Source: Candidatus Neomarinimicrobiota bacterium
Lineage (GTDB): Bacteria; Fidelibacterota; Marinisomatia; Marinisomatales; TCS55
DNA: 15,676 nt
Assembly: GCA_018651745.1 (NCBI GenBank)
Contig: JABIDL010000006.1
Coordinates: forward strand, 1-15,676
Direction of reading: 5' to 3'
A program made the translations under genes and the position numbers. Below are positions 3 to 10,751 of this stretch, in pieces (the first letter of the stretch is position 1; each line of letters starts with the position of its first letter). The notes under the pieces were generated by a model that searched no databases, had not been told where the DNA came from, and saw only the letters and a program-made list of their open reading frames with translations.

Positions 3-3000
3 AAATGGGTTTATTTCGGATTTAATGGAACGATGTCGGACACTGTAACGACCAGTGTAACGATTGAAGAATTTTCCGAATCAGGTCTTTGGGAATTACA
101 GTATGGGTACGGGTATGACATAGTAAATAATCAAGTCTGGTTTTATGATACTGACTTAGACACCCTCGGAATAGATGCACAATTCTTTGTGATTAACCGG
201 AATGATGATTATTCCGGTCCAACATGGCACGTATCCACTTCCGGCTCGGACAACACCGGCGACGGTTCCTATGATTTTCCCTTTGCTTCCATCCAGACGG
301 CGATTGATTCATCCAGCGATGGCGACAGCATCTTGGTGGCGGAAGGAACATATAATGTGAACGATTTGACTGTTTCGGACAAATCCCTGACATTGAAAGG
401 TGTGTACGGCCGCGATTTCACCATTCTCGATGGGGAGGATGCTCATCGGATTCTGACCGTTAACAATGCAAGTACCTATACTTTTAACATGAGTGGTTTT
501 ACGGTGACAGATGGTGACGCGCTGTCAAACTCCGGTTACGTGATGAGTGTGGAAGGCGGAATGGCGACATTCTCTGATATGATCCTGGAAGACAGTGGAC
601 AGAATACTGGGAACACACTTTTTCGGGGGAATGATCCTGATTCAACCACCTTTAAGAATTGCATTGTCAGAAACAATTCAGCAGAAAACGCCGCCGGTGT
701 AGGATATGCAACATTAAAATATTGCCTTGTGTACGGTAATTCAGGATGGAACAACACGAATCCTGTTGAGGAATGTATCGTGATTAACTGTACTATTGTA
801 AACAATGGTGGCGGTGCAGGAAATTCGTGGACGACTGGCGGGGCTACAAACAGCCAGATCGTGAATTCCATTATCCGTGAAAATGGAGGTGCAGGACAGA
901 TCTATTATTATTCCGGATCAACACTGACTGGTGTCACTTATTCAAATATTGAGGACGGATATACAGGAACTGGAAACATAGATGCTGATCCGCTTTTCAC
1001 CGATCCTGATAGCGGTGACTTTTCACTTCAAGCAGAATCACCGGCGATAGACGCCGGCGACCCTAATTCCGATTATGATCCGGACGGCACCATCGCCGAC
1101 ATGGGCGCCTATTATTATCATCAATCAGCACAGCCTTCCAATGATAACTACTCCCTCAGCTTCGATGGGGTAGATGATTATGTAGATATTCCAAACCTGG
1201 TTGATGGCAGTACCAGTCTCACGATTGAAGCTTGGTTCAAATACGAAAATACGGATACATGGAGATGGATCTACGGCGGCGGTTCGGACTGGGTTGATGT
1301 TGGGGCCAGTGTTGCCAGTGGCGGGAATACAATCAGATATCATTTCAAGACCACAGACGGCAGCTTTTCCAATGGTGACGGGTCCATCCAACTTTCACCC
1401 TATAGGTGGTACCATTTTGCAATGACCTACGATGGCTCTGCTGTGAAGGGATACATTGACGGCCAGCTTGATTTTGAAACTTCATTTTCAGGGTCTGTTG
1501 AAACCAACCAAAACCAGATGATTGGCGCCGGTTACACCAATGCCGGTGAATTTTTCAAGGGCAATTTAGATGATGTCAGAATTTGGGGTTATGACAGATC
1601 CCAATCAGAAATTCAGGATAATATGTTTGATGTGGACCCAGCATCTGAGATCTACCTCGAAGGGTGCTGGACGTTTAACGAAGGAACAGGAGACACTACT
1701 TACGGACAAAGTAGCAACCCTCACGAAGCCGTAATCTACGGCGCTTCGTGGAGTACGGATGTGCCGGATTCATCAGTTAGTATTAGTCCGGAGCCAAACC
1801 TGCGAGTGAATTGGATGGAATCCATTTATCATGTCCAACCCGGTGACGAAATTGGCGATTCTATTTATGTGGAAATAATCAATGTTGGCGAAGCCGATGC
1901 CTCTAATTTTGATGTCGGGTTTTACATTTCAGAAGATAGTATTATAACAACTTCAGATCATCTCTTAACCGATGGGCGCGTAAATGTTACTTTTCTAGCC
2001 TCCGGTGATACGACGGTGATAGATTTACCTACCGATGTATCTGTCCCGAATGATTTACCTGACGGCATTTACTATTTCAGTCCTATCGTGGACGAATTCA
2101 ATGTGGTTCAGGAATACGATGAGTCCGACAATTTCTGGCTGCATCACATGCGTATCGGCGATCCGGATTTTTCCCTCAGCTTCGATGGGGTGGATGATTA
2201 TGTTGTCATCGCTGACGACCCCAGCCTAAATCCTTCTGATGCGATTACTGTCAGTGCTTGGATCAAGCCCTATTCCTGGGACGGCAACCGACGCGTTCTG
2301 CAAAAAGGTGCCGGAGACGAATTTATTTTGGAAGGCGAGGATAGCGATCATTTTGAATTTGTAGTAAACGGTCAGGGATATTCGGTGGAAACTGTGCTCC
2401 CACCCCTGAATGTTTGGACGCACGTGGCTGGTGTTTACAATGGCGATTACGCTTTTCTGTATATTGATGGACAGCTACAAGCAAGCACGTTTATTGGCCA
2501 AACTTTAACCACCACCACCGATCCGCTTTACATCGGCACCAAAAATGAAACATCACCGGACACTGATCATTTCAATGGATTAATTGATGACGTTCGTCTG
2601 TGGGGCCGCGCGCTGGATGAATCTGAAATTTTACCAAATATGTATTTTGAACCAAATTGGGATGATGATTTGCGACCAATCGCTTTTTGGCCTTTTCATG
2701 AGGGCGGTGGCGATTCTGTATATAGCTGGACTGAAAATATGCATCATGGATCAATTAACGGTGCTTCGTGGAGTGCTGATGTCCCGGATAAACCCACCGG
2801 ATCCATTAATATAGAGTTCACCTCAGTCCGCCCCGATTCCGGCTACCTGTGGGTGGGGCTCTGGTTTCCCGGAAGCGATATTTATAATCGTGGTCCCGAT
2901 GTTGGTCGAGATTCTATTTATGTCAATTTTGCAAGTCAATCCATGCAGACCATGTTATTTAACGGTCTTCCTGATGCCGAGGGATATATTGTCCGATCAC

Positions 3001-6000
3001 GTTTTGATGCCATTGATTCTCCCACCAACGGCCCGGACGACTGTGATAACGGGTATGACCTGGAAGGCATTACCGATCCCATAAACATTTACCTTGGCGG
3101 CACAGTTTATTCCGATCTGGCACTGGATGAATGCTCCGGACCATACGAGGCTGGATCATCGTATTTTGGTACCGATTTCAGCCGCATTCGCGTATGGGAA
3201 GGAAATCCGGTCAATCCCGATGCAAACCAAAATGCTTTTGCCATTACCGGAGATCAAATCACAGTAGAAGCGTGGGTGTATCTCATGAACCTTCCGGTTG
3301 GCGATGGGTACGATATTGTTTTGCGTCCTTTCGGTGGAGGGGAAGCCCGCGGGTCCTATGGTCTGCATCTTCAATACGATGAACAGGGAAATCCGGTGTG
3401 GGCATTCAGCATTTCTGATACCGTTTCCAATATCGGTTATGTTTCAAGTTCGATGGTTTCGCAGGGAAGTTGGACCCACGTGGCCGGGACGTATGATGGT
3501 ACCAGTATGAAACTTTATTTAGATGGAAACTTGCAGGCTGAAGTTCAATATACGGGTACGATTGGCTATGGTGACACCGGGTTTTATATCGGTGGATACT
3601 TGGGCGGACAAGATGATTTTTTTCACGGCATTATCCGGGATGTCAGCATTTGGGATGTATCTCGGCCCGGGGCAAGTATTCTGATAGATTTAACCACCCC
3701 GCCTACCGGGTCAGAACCCAATCTGCAAGGGTATTGGCCTTTGAATGAATTCACGGAATTCAATGGAAATTATCCAATTTCTGAGGATCATTCTCCAAAT
3801 GAAAATCATTTATTTGTTCAGGGCAATGTTTCCATGGTGGATGCAGCGATTGGTGATCCAAATATTCTAATTGAACCTTGGGGTAACAATTATTATCAAG
3901 GAAATGGCGTTGAAAATGAACCGTTCAGGTTTGGTCCCGTTGTAGATGGCTGGCCACTGACATGGTCGTTATCAAGCGCACCGTCAGGAATGACTATTGA
4001 TGCCAATGGACATATCGATTGGACACCATCAAGTAATCAAGATGGAACGTACATTGTGTATGTTCATGGTAGTAATTCCATATCTTCGGCCCAAAGTGAA
4101 TTAAGAATTTTTGTAGATGAATTTCCGGTGGATTCCCGGGAACACAATAATAACAATGTTTCTTATAGCGTTATGAATAACGGCGTGCTTGGCGCTGACA
4201 GAGGAATCGGTACGGGATTCCAATTCAATGGGGAATTTGGGTTGTATGAAGGAAGCTTGATTATTGGGCAAACCGATTACCAGATTTCCGGTGCATTGTA
4301 TGAACGTGAATTCGCCACCCGCAGCATGATGTCTGAAAGAACAAGCCCATTCAACGGATTCGACCAGGCATTTCAATCCGATTTTGATGACAGCCGGGTA
4401 CAAAACCCCATTGGCGTGCACGTCTTCCAGAATTCTTATTCCAAATCCAATGCGCCTGATAATGATTATGTGATTATGGATTATGAGTTGATGAATACAT
4501 CAGGCCAAGATCTTACAGGAATTTATATAGGGCTTGCAATGGACTGGGATGTGGGCGATTACCTCAACAATTCCGGCGGATTCGATCCGGATAGAAATCT
4601 CAGTTATGTGTATGAAACTTCAACCGGGCCCAATCGTGTCCAACGCTCAGAAGATGAAGGAATGCTGAAAAAAAGGAATTCTACTGATCGCAATGCTCGA
4701 ACCTCACCAACATATTTCGGTGTATCTGCGCTAACGGATAGTGTTTCAGGTCATTATATTCAAATAGGGCAATTTGATTCGACTTATTTTTACCTCATGA
4801 CGCACATCGAATCTCAAGACTCCGTGGGCGATGCAAGAGCATACTTATCAGTCGGCCCGTTTGATATTCCCGCTTACGACACGATTTCCACAATGTTTGC
4901 GGTGCTCGGAGGCGAAAACTTGGCGGATCTTCAGGCCAATGCCGATGCAGCCAAAATGGCGGTCATGTCTTCAGGCCCCGTCATTTCCGTTTATCCGGAT
5001 TCACTTAATTTCACTGTATTCCCGCCGGAGAATGAGCAGTCGCAAACATTAACAATAGAGAATACCGGGAATGCGCCATTGGAAGTGCAAATAAGTACAG
5101 GCACACTTCCCGTCACCGATATAGATGGGAATGTCTATCAAACTATACAAATCGGCGACCAAGTATGGATGGCGGAAAATTTGAAAGTAACCAAATTTCG
5201 GGATGGAACTGACATTCCTACAGGCTACAACAACACAGATTGGTCAAATCTTTCAACCGGAGCCTATGCGGTTTACAATGATGACGAAACGAACGCCGAC
5301 ACCTACGGCTACCTTTATAATTGGTACGCCGTGGACGACAGCCGCATTATCGCCCCGGAAGGATGGCACGTATCCACGAATGATGAATGGACAGAATTAA
5401 CAAATTATCTTGGGTTTAATGCAGGAAGTATACTTGCCGGTAATGCAGATTTATGGACTGATGGAAATTTAAAAAATAACGCAGAATTTGGGTCAAGCGA
5501 CTTTATGGCCCTTCCGGGTGGCTACCGCAGTGGCTATATTGATAATTACAACTCTTTAGGAATGAATGGCAAATTTTGGACTTCAACGGAGGATTACAAT
5601 GCTAACAATGGTTTTAGTTGGTATCTGAATTACAGTCAATCGTCGGTCATTTATTCTGCTAGCGGCAAGTCGTACGGACAATCTGTTCGTTGCGTCCAAG
5701 ATCAAACTGCTGTAACTGCGGTAGTCGTATCGTCCCAGCGAGAAATTGCCAAGGATAAATCCGGCGTCTCAACAACCAATACCCAATTCCCAATACCCAA
5801 TACCCGAACTTCCCGCACCGACTGGCTCACCCTTTCGGCTGACACGCTTACTATTCAGCCGGGAACTTCCGCTGACGTAACGGTAACGGTTAACGCCGCC
5901 GGCTTAGATCCCGGGGATTACAGCGACAATATAATGATCACCAGCAACGATTCCACAAACAGCAGTGTGAATATCCCGGTGAATATGAGCGTACTTTACA

Positions 6001-9000
6001 GTGGACCTTCAACATGGCATATCTCTACCGACGGTGATGATGCCGCCGGTGACGGCTCAGCAGAGTTGCCTTTTGCCAGCATTCAACACGGAATTGATAT
6101 GGCAAATGACGGAGACAGCATTCTGGTTGATTCCGGAGATTTTAATGAAAATATATTTATGGGTAAAGATTTAGTATTAAAAAGTTTGTATGGACCGCAA
6201 ATAACATCCATCATTCATTCTAGTGTGGATTATGCCCTTGTAACATTTTATGGCGGTGGTAATTCTAATTTGTCCGGGTTTTCTTTAAAAAATGGAAACC
6301 GGACAGGGCAGGGCGGTTCCGCAATTGATATCTATTCATCTGTCACAGATGTCTTTATTGATAACTGTATCCTTGAAAATAATGTTGCGCAATCTGCAGA
6401 TGCTTGGGGTGGAACAATCCTTGTACATGGTGACAGTGTATCTTCTAACATTAAAATTTCAAATTCAATCCTTCGGAATAATACCAATAGCAATGGCTGC
6501 TCGGCCATCCGCATAGGCGATAATCTTGATCCGGTAAAAATAGTTAATACATTAATTGCTGATAATGACGGCCCGGCTGTTCATTTAAACAACGGGAAAA
6601 TAAATATGGTCAATTGCACTATTGTCGGTCAATCGGATAACCCTGATGTTTTTATCCTCAATTCAAATTCCTATGGATTGCTGATTAATTCGATTTACGC
6701 CAACGCCGCCCAAGGTCCCGAAGTAACCAATAATTCGTTATTGGATGTCGTTTATTCAAACATTGAAGGCGGATGGACAGGTGCAGGGAATATTGATTTC
6801 AATCCATTATTTTCAGATACAGCCAACGGCGATTACCGACTTTCTGATTCATCTTCCTGCATAGGCGCCGGAATTGATTCGATAGAAATTGCCGGCATTT
6901 GGTATGTCGCCCCCGATTATGATCTTGACAACAATTCTCGTCCCAACCCTGAGAACTCAAACCCGGACATAGGCGCCTACGAAAATCCGCTTGGAATTAC
7001 GTCCAACAATGCGCCTTCTGTCTCTTTAAATATGACGTTGGAAGAACAGCATGGATTTGTTTTATTTAATATAGATATGAGCGATCCGGACGGAGATGAA
7101 CTCAATGCTGTCCTGTATTTTTCAACCGATTCAAGTAACTGGATTGAAGCGTCGGCGCAACCAATAGGAGCTTCAAAATCCGAACCATCTAATGATCAAA
7201 CTAAATCTTTGGCAATGGGTGGAATTGATCTTCCCCAGAATTCGCGATCGTCTTCAAGGTCTTGGATGTCGTGGGATTCTCAATATGATCTGGGTGATGT
7301 AATGGTCAACGATGTGTGGCTCAAAGCAGAAGTGAATGATGGTTTTATAGCGGTTAACGGATTTCTTGGACCTTTTGCAGTGGATAACCACATCGGAACT
7401 GTAGTGTTTTATAATCCGCCAACAGAAGAAATTTCCGGTGAGGTTGAGGTGAACTACCTGATTTCAGATTCAACCAATGACGAATATAATATGACAGTTT
7501 CTTATTCCGCGGACGGCGGGTCTTCTTGGATGGAACCGACCCTAATCAATCCAATCTCGGATCCGCTGACTCCGTCGGATTATTCCGGCAACTTTACCTG
7601 GAATACGACAACAGATTTGGCAAATTATGATGGCCAAATACTTCTCGCTCTTTCATTATCGGACGGATGGGAATATGGAAATGCCGATACAATTGATTTT
7701 ACCGTGGACAATCAGGATCTCATCAATTTGGTAAGTTATTCCCCGGACACCTCGGCACTTTTGAATTGGTACGACTCATTTTTGCTGTTTTTCCCGGGGG
7801 AATTAGATCAGTCAACGGTGGATTCCGGCATCACACTTTCCGGAAGTATAAGTGGCCCAATTTCAGTATCAACCAATATAATGACAATAGGTTCTCAGGT
7901 TCGGGTTTCACTAATTCCTGATGATAATTTTTACGCAGGCGAAACCGTAACGCTTATCATTTCTACTCAATTAAAAGATACACTTGGCAATCCGTACGAC
8001 GGAAATATGAATGGTGATCAGGATGATGATTTGGATATCACAATCCTTGAATATGATACGCCTTACCTCGCCGATTATGACAATTCTGCTCTTGTTGATT
8101 TTTCAGATCTCTTGGCGTTTCAGCAAGCATGGTGGGAACCGACCAATTATGGCGAACGTGAAACAGGTCCGGCCGAAGGGACTGCTCCGAATTTAAGGAT
8201 TGTTCCCGATGGCAAAATTGATTTTGAAGATCTCATGGTTTTTGTCCAAATGTGGAACTGGTCTGCAGGATTTATTCCAAACGACGGCTGGATGACGAAT
8301 GCTCGTACCACAGAAAATTCCGGAATTTCCGTCGAAACGACGTTCCCGAAAAAACAAGTCGGTGTCGAGGTCGAATCTCTTTATTTGAACATTAATGTTG
8401 ATTCGTTAGCGCGCGTCGGCGCAGGGGAGTTACTTATTGCTTACGATCCATTGGCTCTTGAATTTAAGAACGCAGTTGCCGCACAGCATGCTAACTGGAT
8501 CGTTCTTGCCAGTGCGTCAGAAACAGAAGGCATTCTTCGTATAAATCTCGCAGATTTCAGTACAGATTTAACCCTAGGATCTGCATTGGCATCAATTGAG
8601 TTTCGGACACTTCAGGATGTGGAAACATCCATTAATTGGCAAGCAGATATCCGCGACCGCTCCGGAATGATCTGGGAAAAGGCCTCTGGGCAAACTGATT
8701 TCTCCACGGTTCCGCCATTGCCAATTGTGTTTGCATTGCACCAGAATTTCCCGAACCCGTTTAATCCCACAACAACAGTTCGCTACGATCTTCCTGAAGA
8801 TTCCCGTGTTCGTTTGACTGTTTACGATATTCAAGGAAGGGAAGTCACTATCATTTCTAATGATATTCAGCCTGCAGGATTCCGCTCAATTATTTGGAAT
8901 GGTCGCGATTCTCACGGGCGTTCCGTTGCCGCCGGTATGTATTTTCTGCGTTTGGACACGCCGTCCTATCACGATACGCGGAAAATGATTTTACTGAAAT

Positions 9001-9002
9001 AA
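3..9002 (+). CDS. Giant multidomain T9SS-exported surface protein, 5'-partial
   Basis: The frame is open to the left edge, and the first Met (nt 33, residue 1 here) starts a non-hydrophobic stretch without a signal peptide, so the N-terminus lies outside the window. Domains by resemblance: right-handed beta-helix with a choice-of-anchor-Q-like end, SPAIDAGDP (about 64-365); LamG (371-581); CARDB-like Ig (586-710); LamG (712-923); unrecognised (923-1065); LamG (1067-1275); putative Ig (1276-1366); a module seen in FCB secreted proteins (1367-1648); HYDIN/BACON-like Ig (1649-1989) interrupted by a FISUMP domain (1692-1892); second beta-helix (1993-2320); two Ig/Fn3-like domains (2323-2564); SbsA-like Ig (2564-2675); dockerin-like pair (2676-2745); cohesin-like (2766-2887); T9SS type A/FlgD-like tail (2899-2989). 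I see no membrane segment and no enzyme signature. Export through the outer membrane by T9SS, with cleavage or anchoring of the tail, follows from family knowledge. An adhesive or carbohydrate-binding role is inferred from LamG and FISUMP. The gene, export route and tail are secure; the exact function is unknown. Confidence 0.93.
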   Translation, partial: KWVYFGFNGTMSDTVTTSVTIEEFSESGLWELQYGYGYDIVNNQVWFYDTDLDTLGIDAQFFVINRNDDYSGPTWHVSTSGSDNTGDGSYDFPFASIQTAIDSSSDGDSILVAEGTYNVNDLTVSDKSLTLKGVYGRDFTILDGEDAHRILTVNNASTYTFNMSGFTVTDGDALSNSGYVMSVEGGMATFSDMILEDSGQNTGNTLFRGNDPDSTTFKNCIVRNNSAENAAGVGYATLKYCLVYGNSGWNNTNPVEECIVINCTIVNNGGGAGNSWTTGGATNSQIVNSIIRENGGAGQIYYYSGSTLTGVTYSNIEDGYTGTGNIDADPLFTDPDSGDFSLQAESPAIDAGDPNSDYDPDGTIADMGAYYYHQSAQPSNDNYSLSFDGVDDYVDIPNLVDGSTSLTIEAWFKYENTDTWRWIYGGGSDWVDVGASVASGGNTIRYHFKTTDGSFSNGDGSIQLSPYRWYHFAMTYDGSAVKGYIDGQLDFETSFSGSVETNQNQMIGAGYTNAGEFFKGNLDDVRIWGYDRSQSEIQDNMFDVDPASEIYLEGCWTFNEGTGDTTYGQSSNPHEAVIYGASWSTDVPDSSVSISPEPNLRVNWMESIYHVQPGDEIGDSIYVEIINVGEADASNFDVGFYISEDSIITTSDHLLTDGRVNVTFLASGDTTVIDLPTDVSVPNDLPDGIYYFSPIVDEFNVVQEYDESDNFWLHHMRIGDPDFSLSFDGVDDYVVIADDPSLNPSDAITVSAWIKPYSWDGNRRVLQKGAGDEFILEGEDSDHFEFVVNGQGYSVETVLPPLNVWTHVAGVYNGDYAFLYIDGQLQASTFIGQTLTTTTDPLYIGTKNETSPDTDHFNGLIDDVRLWGRALDESEILPNMYFEPNWDDDLRPIAFWPFHEGGGDSVYSWTENMHHGSINGASWSADVPDKPTGSINIEFTSVRPDSGYLWVGLWFPGSDIYNRGPDVGRDSIYVNFASQSMQTMLFNGLPDAEGYIVRSRFDAIDSPTNGPDDCDNGYDLEGITDPINIYLGGTVYSDLALDECSGPYEAGSSYFGTDFSRIRVWEGNPVNPDANQNAFAITGDQITVEAWVYLMNLPVGDGYDIVLRPFGGGEARGSYGLHLQYDEQGNPVWAFSISDTVSNIGYVSSSMVSQGSWTHVAGTYDGTSMKLYLDGNLQAEVQYTGTIGYGDTGFYIGGYLGGQDDFFHGIIRDVSIWDVSRPGASILIDLTTPPTGSEPNLQGYWPLNEFTEFNGNYPISEDHSPNENHLFVQGNVSMVDAAIGDPNILIEPWGNNYYQGNGVENEPFRFGPVVDGWPLTWSLSSAPSGMTIDANGHIDWTPSSNQDGTYIVYVHGSNSISSAQSELRIFVDEFPVDSREHNNNNVSYSVMNNGVLGADRGIGTGFQFNGEFGLYEGSLIIGQTDYQISGALYEREFATRSMMSERTSPFNGFDQAFQSDFDDSRVQNPIGVHVFQNSYSKSNAPDNDYVIMDYELMNTSGQDLTGIYIGLAMDWDVGDYLNNSGGFDPDRNLSYVYETSTGPNRVQRSEDEGMLKKRNSTDRNARTSPTYFGVSALTDSVSGHYIQIGQFDSTYFYLMTHIESQDSVGDARAYLSVGPFDIPAYDTISTMFAVLGGENLADLQANADAAKMAVMSSGPVISVYPDSLNFTVFPPENEQSQTLTIENTGNAPLEVQISTGTLPVTDIDGNVYQTIQIGDQVWMAENLKVTKFRDGTDIPTGYNNTDWSNLSTGAYAVYNDDETNADTYGYLYNWYAVDDSRIIAPEGWHVSTNDEWTELTNYLGFNAGSILAGNADLWTDGNLKNNAEFGSSDFMALPGGYRSGYIDNYNSLGMNGKFWTSTEDYNANNGFSWYLNYSQSSVIYSASGKSYGQSVRCVQDQTAVTAVVVSSQREIAKDKSGVSTTNTQFPIPNTRTSRTDWLTLSADTLTIQPGTSADVTVTVNAAGLDPGDYSDNIMITSNDSTNSSVNIPVNMSVLYSGPSTWHISTDGDDAAGDGSAELPFASIQHGIDMANDGDSILVDSGDFNENIFMGKDLVLKSLYGPQITSIIHSSVDYALVTFYGGGNSNLSGFSLKNGNRTGQGGSAIDIYSSVTDVFIDNCILENNVAQSADAWGGTILVHGDSVSSNIKISNSILRNNTNSNGCSAIRIGDNLDPVKIVNTLIADNDGPAVHLNNGKINMVNCTIVGQSDNPDVFILNSNSYGLLINSIYANAAQGPEVTNNSLLDVVYSNIEGGWTGAGNIDFNPLFSDTANGDYRLSDSSSCIGAGIDSIEIAGIWYVAPDYDLDNNSRPNPENSNPDIGAYENPLGITSNNAPSVSLNMTLEEQHGFVLFNIDMSDPDGDELNAVLYFSTDSSNWIEASAQPIGASKSEPSNDQTKSLAMGGIDLPQNSRSSSRSWMSWDSQYDLGDVMVNDVWLKAEVNDGFIAVNGFLGPFAVDNHIGTVVFYNPPTEEISGEVEVNYLISDSTNDEYNMTVSYSADGGSSWMEPTLINPISDPLTPSDYSGNFTWNTTTDLANYDGQILLALSLSDGWEYGNADTIDFTVDNQDLINLVSYSPDTSALLNWYDSFLLFFPGELDQSTVDSGITLSGSISGPISVSTNIMTIGSQVRVSLIPDDNFYAGETVTLIISTQLKDTLGNPYDGNMNGDQDDDLDITILEYDTPYLADYDNSALVDFSDLLAFQQAWWEPTNYGERETGPAEGTAPNLRIVPDGKIDFEDLMVFVQMWNWSAGFIPNDGWMTNARTTENSGISVETTFPKKQVGVEVESLYLNINVDSLARVGAGELLIAYDPLALEFKNAVAAQHANWIVLASASETEGILRINLADFSTDLTLGSALASIEFRTLQDVETSINWQADIRDRSGMIWEKASGQTDFSTVPPLPIVFALHQNFPNPFNPTTTVRYDLPEDSRVRLTVYDIQGREVTIISNDIQPAGFRSIIWNGRDSHGRSVAAGMYFLRLDTPSYHDTRKMILLK
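1152..1183 (+). repeat. Direct repeat, copy 1 (LamG module 1 start)
   Basis: These 32 nt encode the LamG opening SLSFDGVDDYV and match 2172-2203 at all but one position (a/g at 1172/2192). The pair lies exactly 1,020 nt (340 codons) apart. It marks the start of two LamG modules of equal length within the giant gene and suggests a fairly recent internal duplication or gene conversion. Confidence 0.8.
2172..2203 (+). repeat. Direct repeat, copy 2 (LamG module 2 start)
   Basis: Partner of 1152-1183. A second matched stretch, gcttcgtggagt, occurs at the module ends (1743-1754 and 2763-2774) with the same 1,020-nt offset. The two LamG modules therefore keep register from end to end, although their interiors have diverged. 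Confidence 0.8.
5097..5819 (+). other. FISUMP (C-type-lectin-like) domain inserted inside an Ig-like domain
   Basis: This part of the giant gene encodes a complete Fibrobacter-succinogenes-major-paralogous domain. It begins TDIDGNVYQTIQIGDQVWMA, continues through YGYLYNWYAV, APEGWHVSTNDEW and ALPGGYRSG, and ends SYGQSVRCVQD. It is followed by a Ser/Thr-rich linker. The residues before it (LTIENTGNAPLEVQIS) and after it (DWLTLSADTLTIQPGTSADV) read as the two halves of one BACON/HYDIN-like Ig domain, in which the first half normally runs directly into the W-L-x-L-S strand. The domain identity is confident. The insertion reading rests on how well the two flanks fit together. Confidence 0.75.
5776..5803 (+). 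repeat. Four tandem heptanucleotides (ccaatac/ccaattc)
   Basis: Four consecutive 7-nt units (ccaatac, ccaattc, ccaatac, ccaatac) lie in the linker between the inserted FISUMP domain and the second half of the split Ig domain. Seven is not a multiple of three, so the units are read in shifting frames and give a non-periodic peptide, NTQFPIPNT. A change of one unit would shift the frame, and a change of three units (21 nt) would keep it. Confidence 0.8.
8058..8265 (+). other. Dockerin-like double calcium-loop segment
   Basis: Two Asp-rich loop-helix segments, ADYDNSALVDFSDLLAFQQA and VPDGKIDFEDLMVFVQMWNW, are separated by about 30 residues. They have the D-x-D/N-x-x-x-x-D-F-x-D-L pattern of dockerin type I repeats, which is common in secreted proteins of FCB bacteria. 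The second loop is degenerate, lacking some acidic positions. A cohesin-like domain follows. Calcium binding is inferred from the family. Confidence 0.6.
8727..8999 (+). other. T9SS type A / FlgD-Ig-like C-terminal sorting domain
   Basis: The last roughly 90 residues begin FALHQNFPNPFNPTTTVRYD, continue through VRLTVYDIQGREV and AAGMYFLRL, and end KMILLK. This is the conserved tail of T9SS cargo in FCB bacteria (Por secretion system type A or the related FlgD-like Ig fold). It is a beta-sandwich recognised by the outer-membrane translocon and usually removed or used for anchoring. It identifies the giant protein as exported even though its signal peptide is outside the window. Confidence 0.9.
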
Positions 9003-9191: not shown

Positions 9192-10751
9192 ATGGAAACC
9201 CAATATCGAGGTAAAATCCTTTGGATCGATGACGAAATTGATCATCTAAAACCACATATTCTTGCGCTGGAAGAAAAAGGGTATGATATCCGCACAGCAA
9301 CAAATGGAAGTGACGGGATTGCATTTGCAGAAGATGAACCGTTTCATTTAGCGCTTATTGACCAATTCATGGCGGGGATGGATGGAATGGAAACGCTTAG
9401 ACGTCTCAAAGAATCTTGTCCGGCTTTGCCCGTTGTCATGATTACCAAGAGTGAAGAAGAATGGCTAATGGATGAAGCCATTTCTGAACAGGTAGAACAA
9501 TTCCTAATAAAACCGGTAAATCCAAGTCAAGTCTTCATGGCATGCAAGCAGGTGCTGGAAAAACATAAGATTCAAGAAGAAAAGGCAACGAGCGGATATC
9601 TTCAAGAATTTCAGGATATCGAATCGAAACTATCATCCGATCCATCCTTTGCTGGTTGGTGGGAAATTCATAATAAACTCGTTAAATGGCAGCTCAATTT
9701 TGATGAACATTCAGATACCGGGTTGGGAAATATTCTTGCTGATCAAATCCAGTCGGCCAATAGGGCTTTTATCCAATTCATCGAAAACGGATATTCAAAT
9801 TGGGTGGTAGGTCAAAACCGTCCCCAAATGGTTCACGATACCATTCCAATTGCAGTTGCACCAAAGCTCAACGAAGGAAAAAAAGTGTGCCTTTTGGTTC
9901 TGGATTGTATGCGTCACGATCATTTCATGACACTTATGACAGAACTTCGATCCCTATTCGACATTGTCATTGATCCTAGTCTTGCATTACTTCCATCTGC
10001 AACACCCTATAGCAGGAATGCTATATTTTCCGGAATGTTTCCGAACGAATTTTGCAAGAAATATCCTGAACAGGTCGAAGCCATGCAACAGGAAAAAGGT
10101 GTCAATCGTTTTGAAGAAATATTTTTATCGGATCAACTTTCCCGATTAGATTTAGCCAATGTAAAACTGCATTTTAAAAAAATATGGAAAGTATCTGAGG
10201 GGAATAATTATCAATCTCATGTCGGCGATTATCTTGATTCGGATTTAATGGCAATTGTTGTGAATTTCATTGACATTTTAGCTCATGCGCGGTCTGAATC
10301 AGAAGTTCTGCAGGAAATGGTTCCGGATGAGTCCGGTTATAGAAGCTCCGTCAAAACATGGTTCAAAAATTCATGGCTGTTAAAAGTTTTGAAAACACTC
10401 AAAGAAACTGGCTTTACAGTTGTGATTACAAGTGATCATGGCAGCATCCGGGTTGGTAAAGGCGTTTTGGTTGGTGCCGATAAAGAGACATCTAGCGGAA
10501 TCCGATATAAAATGGGGCGCAATCTGAATTGCAATGAAAAGCACGCACTTATTATTAGAAAACCTTCAGATTATGGCCTTCCCGAACTTGTGCATCAGAC
10601 AAATTATCTCATTGCGAAAGACGATGTATATTTTCTTTACCCGAACCAGCAGCATCGGTATGAGAAAAAAATAAAAAACAGTTTCCAGCATGGCGGGATT
10701 TCTATGGACGAAATGTTGGTTCCGCTTGCAACTCTTACTCCACTTACTTGA
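9192..10751 (+). CDS. porX: PorX: T9SS response regulator with PglZ phosphatase domain
   Basis: This 519-residue protein has the PorX architecture. The N-terminal receiver (about 8-122) has acidic pair D13/D14, phospho-acceptor D57, T85 in VVMITKSEEE and K107 in LIKPVNP. A helical linker follows, then a C-terminal PglZ/alkaline-phosphatase-superfamily domain (about 225-519) with metal-ligand-type motifs LVLDCMRHD (D238), SATPYSRN (T271, at the nucleophile position), DILAHARSE, TSDHGS and QHGG. In Bacteroidota, PorX acts with histidine kinase PorY and sigma factor SigP to control T9SS genes, and its PglZ domain is a zinc-dependent phosphodiesterase. All key residues appear present. The receiver has MAGMDG where MPGMDG is usual. 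The stop is one nucleotide from tsaE, so the two are probably co-transcribed. The gene directly upstream encodes a giant T9SS substrate. No porY or sigP is seen here. Confidence 0.95.
   Translation: METQYRGKILWIDDEIDHLKPHILALEEKGYDIRTATNGSDGIAFAEDEPFHLALIDQFMAGMDGMETLRRLKESCPALPVVMITKSEEEWLMDEAISEQVEQFLIKPVNPSQVFMACKQVLEKHKIQEEKATSGYLQEFQDIESKLSSDPSFAGWWEIHNKLVKWQLNFDEHSDTGLGNILADQIQSANRAFIQFIENGYSNWVVGQNRPQMVHDTIPIAVAPKLNEGKKVCLLVLDCMRHDHFMTLMTELRSLFDIVIDPSLALLPSATPYSRNAIFSGMFPNEFCKKYPEQVEAMQQEKGVNRFEEIFLSDQLSRLDLANVKLHFKKIWKVSEGNNYQSHVGDYLDSDLMAIVVNFIDILAHARSESEVLQEMVPDESGYRSSVKTWFKNSWLLKVLKTLKETGFTVVITSDHGSIRVGKGVLVGADKETSSGIRYKMGRNLNCNEKHALIIRKPSDYGLPELVHQTNYLIAKDDVYFLYPNQQHRYEKKIKNSFQHGGISMDEMLVPLATLTPLT

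Follow-up and report, generated by a model that had tools for sequence, protein, structure and literature searches.

A complete FISUMP domain apparently nested in a loop of an Ig-like domain of a Neomarinimicrobiota protein, and the recurrence of this loop as an insertion site

The window, that is the whole stretch of 15,676 nucleotides that was analysed, is a contig of a 1.86-Mb assembly. Its forward strand carries an open frame of 2999 residues (3..9002), the 5' end of which lies beyond the contig. This frame holds LamG_3 stretches, a CARDB domain, the Ig-FISUMP module that is the subject of this report, choice-of-anchor Q stretches and a C-terminal sorting signal. The latter is a type A sorting domain of the type IX secretion system (T9SS; residues 2916-2996, 8748..8990, forward strand), recognised by TIGR04183 with 32.2 bits against a cut-off of 23; with PF18962 the score was 23.3 bits, which is below the cut-off of 27. 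The segment directly downstream, 9192-10751, encodes a response regulator that includes a PglZ domain (PF00072 and PF08665). This is the composition of PorX, which regulates type IX secretion.

The module occupies 4977 to 5993 of the forward strand and is made up of five segments. The first of these (residues 1659-1698, 4977..5096, PVISVYPDSLNF..APLEVQIS) resembles the first half of an Ig-like domain and matches positions 1-42 of the 100 in PF22544, or 1-44 of the intact-only model described below. A short linker, TGTL (5097..5108), lies between this half and the match to a complete FISUMP domain (residues 1703-1900, 5109..5702), which is followed by a second linker of 39 residues (QTAVTAVVV..NTRTSRT, 5703..5819), the length of which is variable among relatives. 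The last segment (residues 1940-1997, 5820..5993) starts with DWLTLSADTLTIQPG and resembles a second Ig half of what we call the W type (PF22544 49-96 of 100; intact-only model 41-98). The original prediction, made from the letters alone, had placed a FISUMP domain within a single Ig-like domain at 4979-5998, with roughly 240 residues between the flanks. These coordinates prove to be correct within a few bases, and by position 241 residues separate LTIENTGNAPLEVQIS, which ends at 5096, from DWLTLSADTLTIQPG, which starts at 5820.

Taken alone, the N flank matches PF22544 with E 1.2e-4 and 22.7 bits, by itself below the cut-off of 25.5, and the C flank does so with E 1.3e-5 and 25.8 bits; the whole protein reaches 35 bits against 25.5, as two stretches. 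PF22544, the HYDIN/CFA65/VesB-like Ig family, is modelled as an uninterrupted domain of some 100 residues, nearly the whole length of which is matched by the two halves, whereas the host described here has an insert of 241 residues near position 43. The halves are not one continuous domain but become continuous once joined, as in an interrupted member of the family, the relatives of which include choice-of-anchor D (NF012200), DUF1573 and BACON-type domains. The intact-only model has 99 positions and was derived from 77 intact units, all nested sequences being excluded. With this model the nested stretch yields two pieces, 1-44 (1.1e-11) and 41-98 (3.4e-17), and when the flanks were joined in a script a single match to positions 1-98 resulted, with 92.7 bits. 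The intervening FISUMP is complete, since it matches PF09603 from 1 to 187 of 187 (E 2.5e-37, 129.4 bits against a cut-off of 33.9) and TIGR02145 from 7 to 176 of 176 (113.3 bits against 41.65). In most of the relatives that were found this domain, also known as Fib_succ_major, is C-terminal or in plain tandem, whereas here it sits inside another domain. On these profile matches, 4977-5096 and 5820-5993 are the two halves of one Ig-like domain with a whole FISUMP inside. The proposal of such nesting is upheld by the complementary matches of the halves and by the existence of both uninterrupted hosts (the 77 intact units) and stand-alone FISUMPs, as a nested insertion (A1-B-A2) requires.

An AlphaFold2 model of the window stretch was obtained with 50 FISUMP homologues in the alignment and has a mean pLDDT of 70.8. 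The FISUMP domain is mostly above 85, the C linker is disordered (31-47) and the Ig halves are low, because the alignment contained no Ig homologues. Strands appear in the Ig flanks of the model at 26-31 and 38-43 before the FISUMP and at 294-296, 301-309, 323-327 and 340-342 after it. When the FISUMP was compared with known structures by VIA-align, the matches included the C-terminal domain of Legionella Lcl (8q4e, Z 8.0), Bdellovibrio Bd2740 (Z 7.7) and many C-type lectins, and the domain is accordingly predicted to have a C-type-lectin-like fold. The N and C ends of such folds are close together, which suits insertion into a loop. VIA-align also returned beta-sandwich chains over the model range 3-344 (SIDT1, Z 6.4); these matches are weak, with Z of 6.4 or less and ranges that are end points only, and they would fit one sandwich formed by both flanks without proving it. 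Foldseek alone gave no PDB match to the model with E <0.001. The original prediction had further supposed that the host fold survives around the insert. The sequence matches favour this, the model being of low confidence in just this region, and the host Ig may fold around the FISUMP.

The second Ig half is present in 130 of the 245 genomes of the phylum. N and C halves were paired within fetched regions, which gave 171 units, and the gap between the halves is bimodal, with 77 units at 5-15 residues and 94 at 40-426 residues (median 242), proportions that provide no population estimate because the regions were picked by the strongest W-type second halves. In a reversed-sequence control the half-domain models produced 0 N and 4 C matches, compared with 233 and 253 in the forward direction. 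Every one of the 90 units with an insert of more than 100 residues matches the intact-only model with both halves, which meet near position 43, and the four inserts of 40-81 residues resemble loop expansions and look unstructured. Homologues lacking the insert, to which the original prediction had looked as a check, do exist, with 5-7 residues at the site, and some belong to the window's own family (L034, that is G010). It had also considered that all homologues might share the arrangement. They do not, since nesting is not universal; neither is nesting confined to the window gene, which instead exemplifies a recurrent design with cargo in a loop.

The inserts themselves are diverse. There are 92 distinct ones, and these fall into 31 clusters (about 27 without the four short inserts), some of which probably share folds. 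The Pfam names that exceed the cut-off are MAM, LamG_3, DUF4394 (barely), M43 peptidase, LVIVD, nidogen-like, ALK/LTK glycine-rich, subtilase S8 and lactonase-type propeller, and several large clusters have no match to Pfam. The longest insert in an Ig loop, the 426 residues in L236 (G042:C179), comprises an entire subtilase including a prodomain of the fervidolysin-like kind; in L221, L218 and L247 (G138, G118 and G122) inserts of 280-286 residues match PF12810, ALK/LTK glycine-rich (38.8 bits, cut-off 24.5). Of the 94 nested units, 92 are of the W type, and in 37 of 41 cases an adjacent F-type unit is directly followed by a nested unit. Giant proteins show an alternation of nested W-type and intact F-type Igs, which in L215 amounts to five of each in turn. 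L215, L029 and L222 (G225:C57, G037:C17 and G183:C13) are 2300-2500 residues long, alternate strictly between nested and intact Igs and carry inserts that are nearly all different.

Among the 245 genomes, end-to-end Ig-FISUMP-Ig matches were found, besides the window, in G037:C8, G225:C217 and G231:C2, and reading of the flanks adds G241:C117 and G025:C89, the latter cut at its 5' end. A nested FISUMP is therefore present in about 6 of 245 genomes, distributed over four families (f1, f2, f14 and f30, with three of the genomes in f30). The N junction is similar in the five complete cases and consists of LEV or LEA, I or L, a few residues and [VI]TDIDGN. The linker that follows the FISUMP is variable and in G241 consists of no more than ISINQST, and many stand-alone FISUMPs end at VRCV[RK]D, the residue at which the linker of the window protein starts. 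In a tree of 33 FISUMPs, the closest neighbour of the domain from the window belongs to the same family (G022), and two nested FISUMPs of f30 are placed elsewhere. One clade for the five nested FISUMPs was rejected, at a cost of 56.9 log units (AU p = 1.7e-6), in alignments that recombination may have affected. One clade for the five hosts, in a tree of 115 hosts and 95 columns, was not rejected (p = 0.67), the constrained tree being 20 units better than a quick free tree. The lineages of host and FISUMP appear to have had different histories, which argues for exchange of the cargo, in frame, at a fixed site. The simplest reading of the trees suggests a single FISUMP-bearing host lineage in which the cargo was replaced by other FISUMPs, presumably by cassette exchange. 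Gene conversion, or the export of FISUMPs out of Igs, would leave the same pattern, and export would also break up the FISUMP clade. The idea of an in-frame acquisition, as first put forward, is consistent with the discordance between host and cargo trees. Scans of viral contigs for Ig hosts gave no confirmed relative; viral contigs from IMG/VR (L131-L146) do encode large proteins with several consecutive FISUMP pieces, which are often truncated or permuted.

Comparable pairs of halves were found beyond the phylum. The genomes reached via FISUMP loci contain 32 pairs, of which 14 have a gap of at least 100 residues. One of these is false: in L275, with a gap of 107, the insert opens with a WL motif and is an intact Ig that had been missed. 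In the class of an Ignavibacteriales genome 20 of 36 pairs have a gap of at least 100, and in the phylum of a Delongbacteria genome 25 of 33 pairs reach that length, mostly with two insert types. Judged by these pairings, the nested-Ig architecture is also present in Ignavibacteria and Delongbacteria.

As a whole, these results make it probable, in our judgement, that the window encodes a nested-domain module built on a recurrent W-type acceptor design, with in-frame exchange of cargo at a fixed site and lateral display of the FISUMP. The host would be a HYDIN/choice-of-anchor-D-like Ig of the W type, in which the second half opens with a WL motif, and the FISUMP would interrupt its loop between the third strand and the WL strand. 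W-type Igs may act as acceptors, each with folded cargo in one loop, and the neighbouring intact F-type Igs would usually be spacers. The cargo would be swapped in frame at the fixed site. A type IX system would export the 2999-residue protein, the C-terminal signal would anchor it at the cell surface and the Ig backbone would form a stalk from which the cargo juts sideways, held at both ends. The FISUMP would thus be presented to the side as a probable ligand-binding head, although its resemblance to C-type lectins and to the C-terminal domain of Lcl does not by itself imply a function.

Three other explanations may be compared with this one. The flanks could be separate units in ordinary tandem, the N flank being the truncated remnant of one Ig and the C flank an independent, incomplete Ig, with the FISUMP between them. 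The low confidence of the Ig halves in the model would fit such an arrangement, as would the lack of a strong Pfam match to either half alone. However, in each of the 90 nested units the two halves complement each other within one family and hardly overlap, the joined flanks score like one intact domain, and intact forms of the same Ig, with 5-15 residues at the site, are common, so that we regard this explanation as very improbable. An old Ig-FISUMP-Ig family, inherited vertically without recent insertion or exchange, would account for the occurrence of the same junctions in six genomes of four families and for the compatibility of the FISUMP hosts with one clade. It is less easily reconciled with the restriction of the arrangement to about 6 of 245 genomes, with the failure of the nested FISUMPs to form one clade and with the many other domains at the same host site; we think it unlikely, but it retains more weight than either of the others.

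It might also be argued that the loop is merely a permissive, neutral site at which drift tolerates insertions, and that the cargo has no displayed function. The four inserts of 40-81 residues, which resemble unstructured loop expansions, and the simple heptamer repeat in the window's linker are what one would expect if this were so. Against it are the constancy of the site (90 of 90), its near restriction to W-type Igs, the regular alternation with intact Igs and the nature of the inserts, which can be recognised as complete domains (subtilase, M43 peptidase and LamG, for example). These features leave a neutral site as a distinctly poor explanation. The acceptor reading may be extended to propose that in Marinimicrobia, Ignavibacteria and Delongbacteria the W-type Igs serve as dedicated acceptors, in which in-frame swaps produce a T9SS-exported 'charm bracelet' with interchangeable lateral heads between intact spacer Igs. 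We consider the case for this broader proposal to be evenly balanced.

Domain nesting as such is known. A survey by Schaeffer et al. (2026, PMC13114784) recorded 48,551 domain insertions, in 77% of which the insert is smaller than its host. The median insert there is 115 and the median host 199 residues, positions are evenly spread along the host, and the choice of partner is highly specific in some insert families. The A1-B-A2 topology is common to that survey and to our data, but here a host of about 100 residues receives inserts with a median of 242 at a fixed site and with varied cargo. The main text of the survey contains none of the words 'Immunoglobulin', 'Ig-like' and 'PapD'. The integrin alpha-I domain (PMC12422189 and PMC10659397) is likewise a binding domain in a loop of an extracellular domain, where it widens the range of ligands; it represents one insert family in one chordate host family, whereas many insert families share one small Ig host here. 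None of the open-access papers searched was found to describe bacterial Igs with entire domains in their loops, an absence that proves little, and a promiscuous small Ig acceptor is likewise missing from them. It is contrary to the published insertion trends that so small a domain, of about 100 residues, accommodates at a single site inserts that are 1-4 times as long as itself and come from many unrelated families. If our reading is true, these Igs constitute a natural scaffold for the surface presentation of enzymes and binding domains, and surface proteins could swap heads while the backbone stays. It would also help to explain the poor annotation of such proteins, since each host scores as just two weak half-domains.

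The C linker of the window protein contains an in-frame heptamer repeat, (CCAATAC)x4.3, at 5776..5805 of the forward strand. Derivation of this linker from a dispersed repeat was considered and dropped, since the pattern, with one mismatch allowed, occurs only in the C linker and in one weak match elsewhere in the genome. A change in the copy number of CCAATAC would shift the frame and remove the second Ig half together with the sorting tail, and phase variation through the repeat is therefore conceivable.
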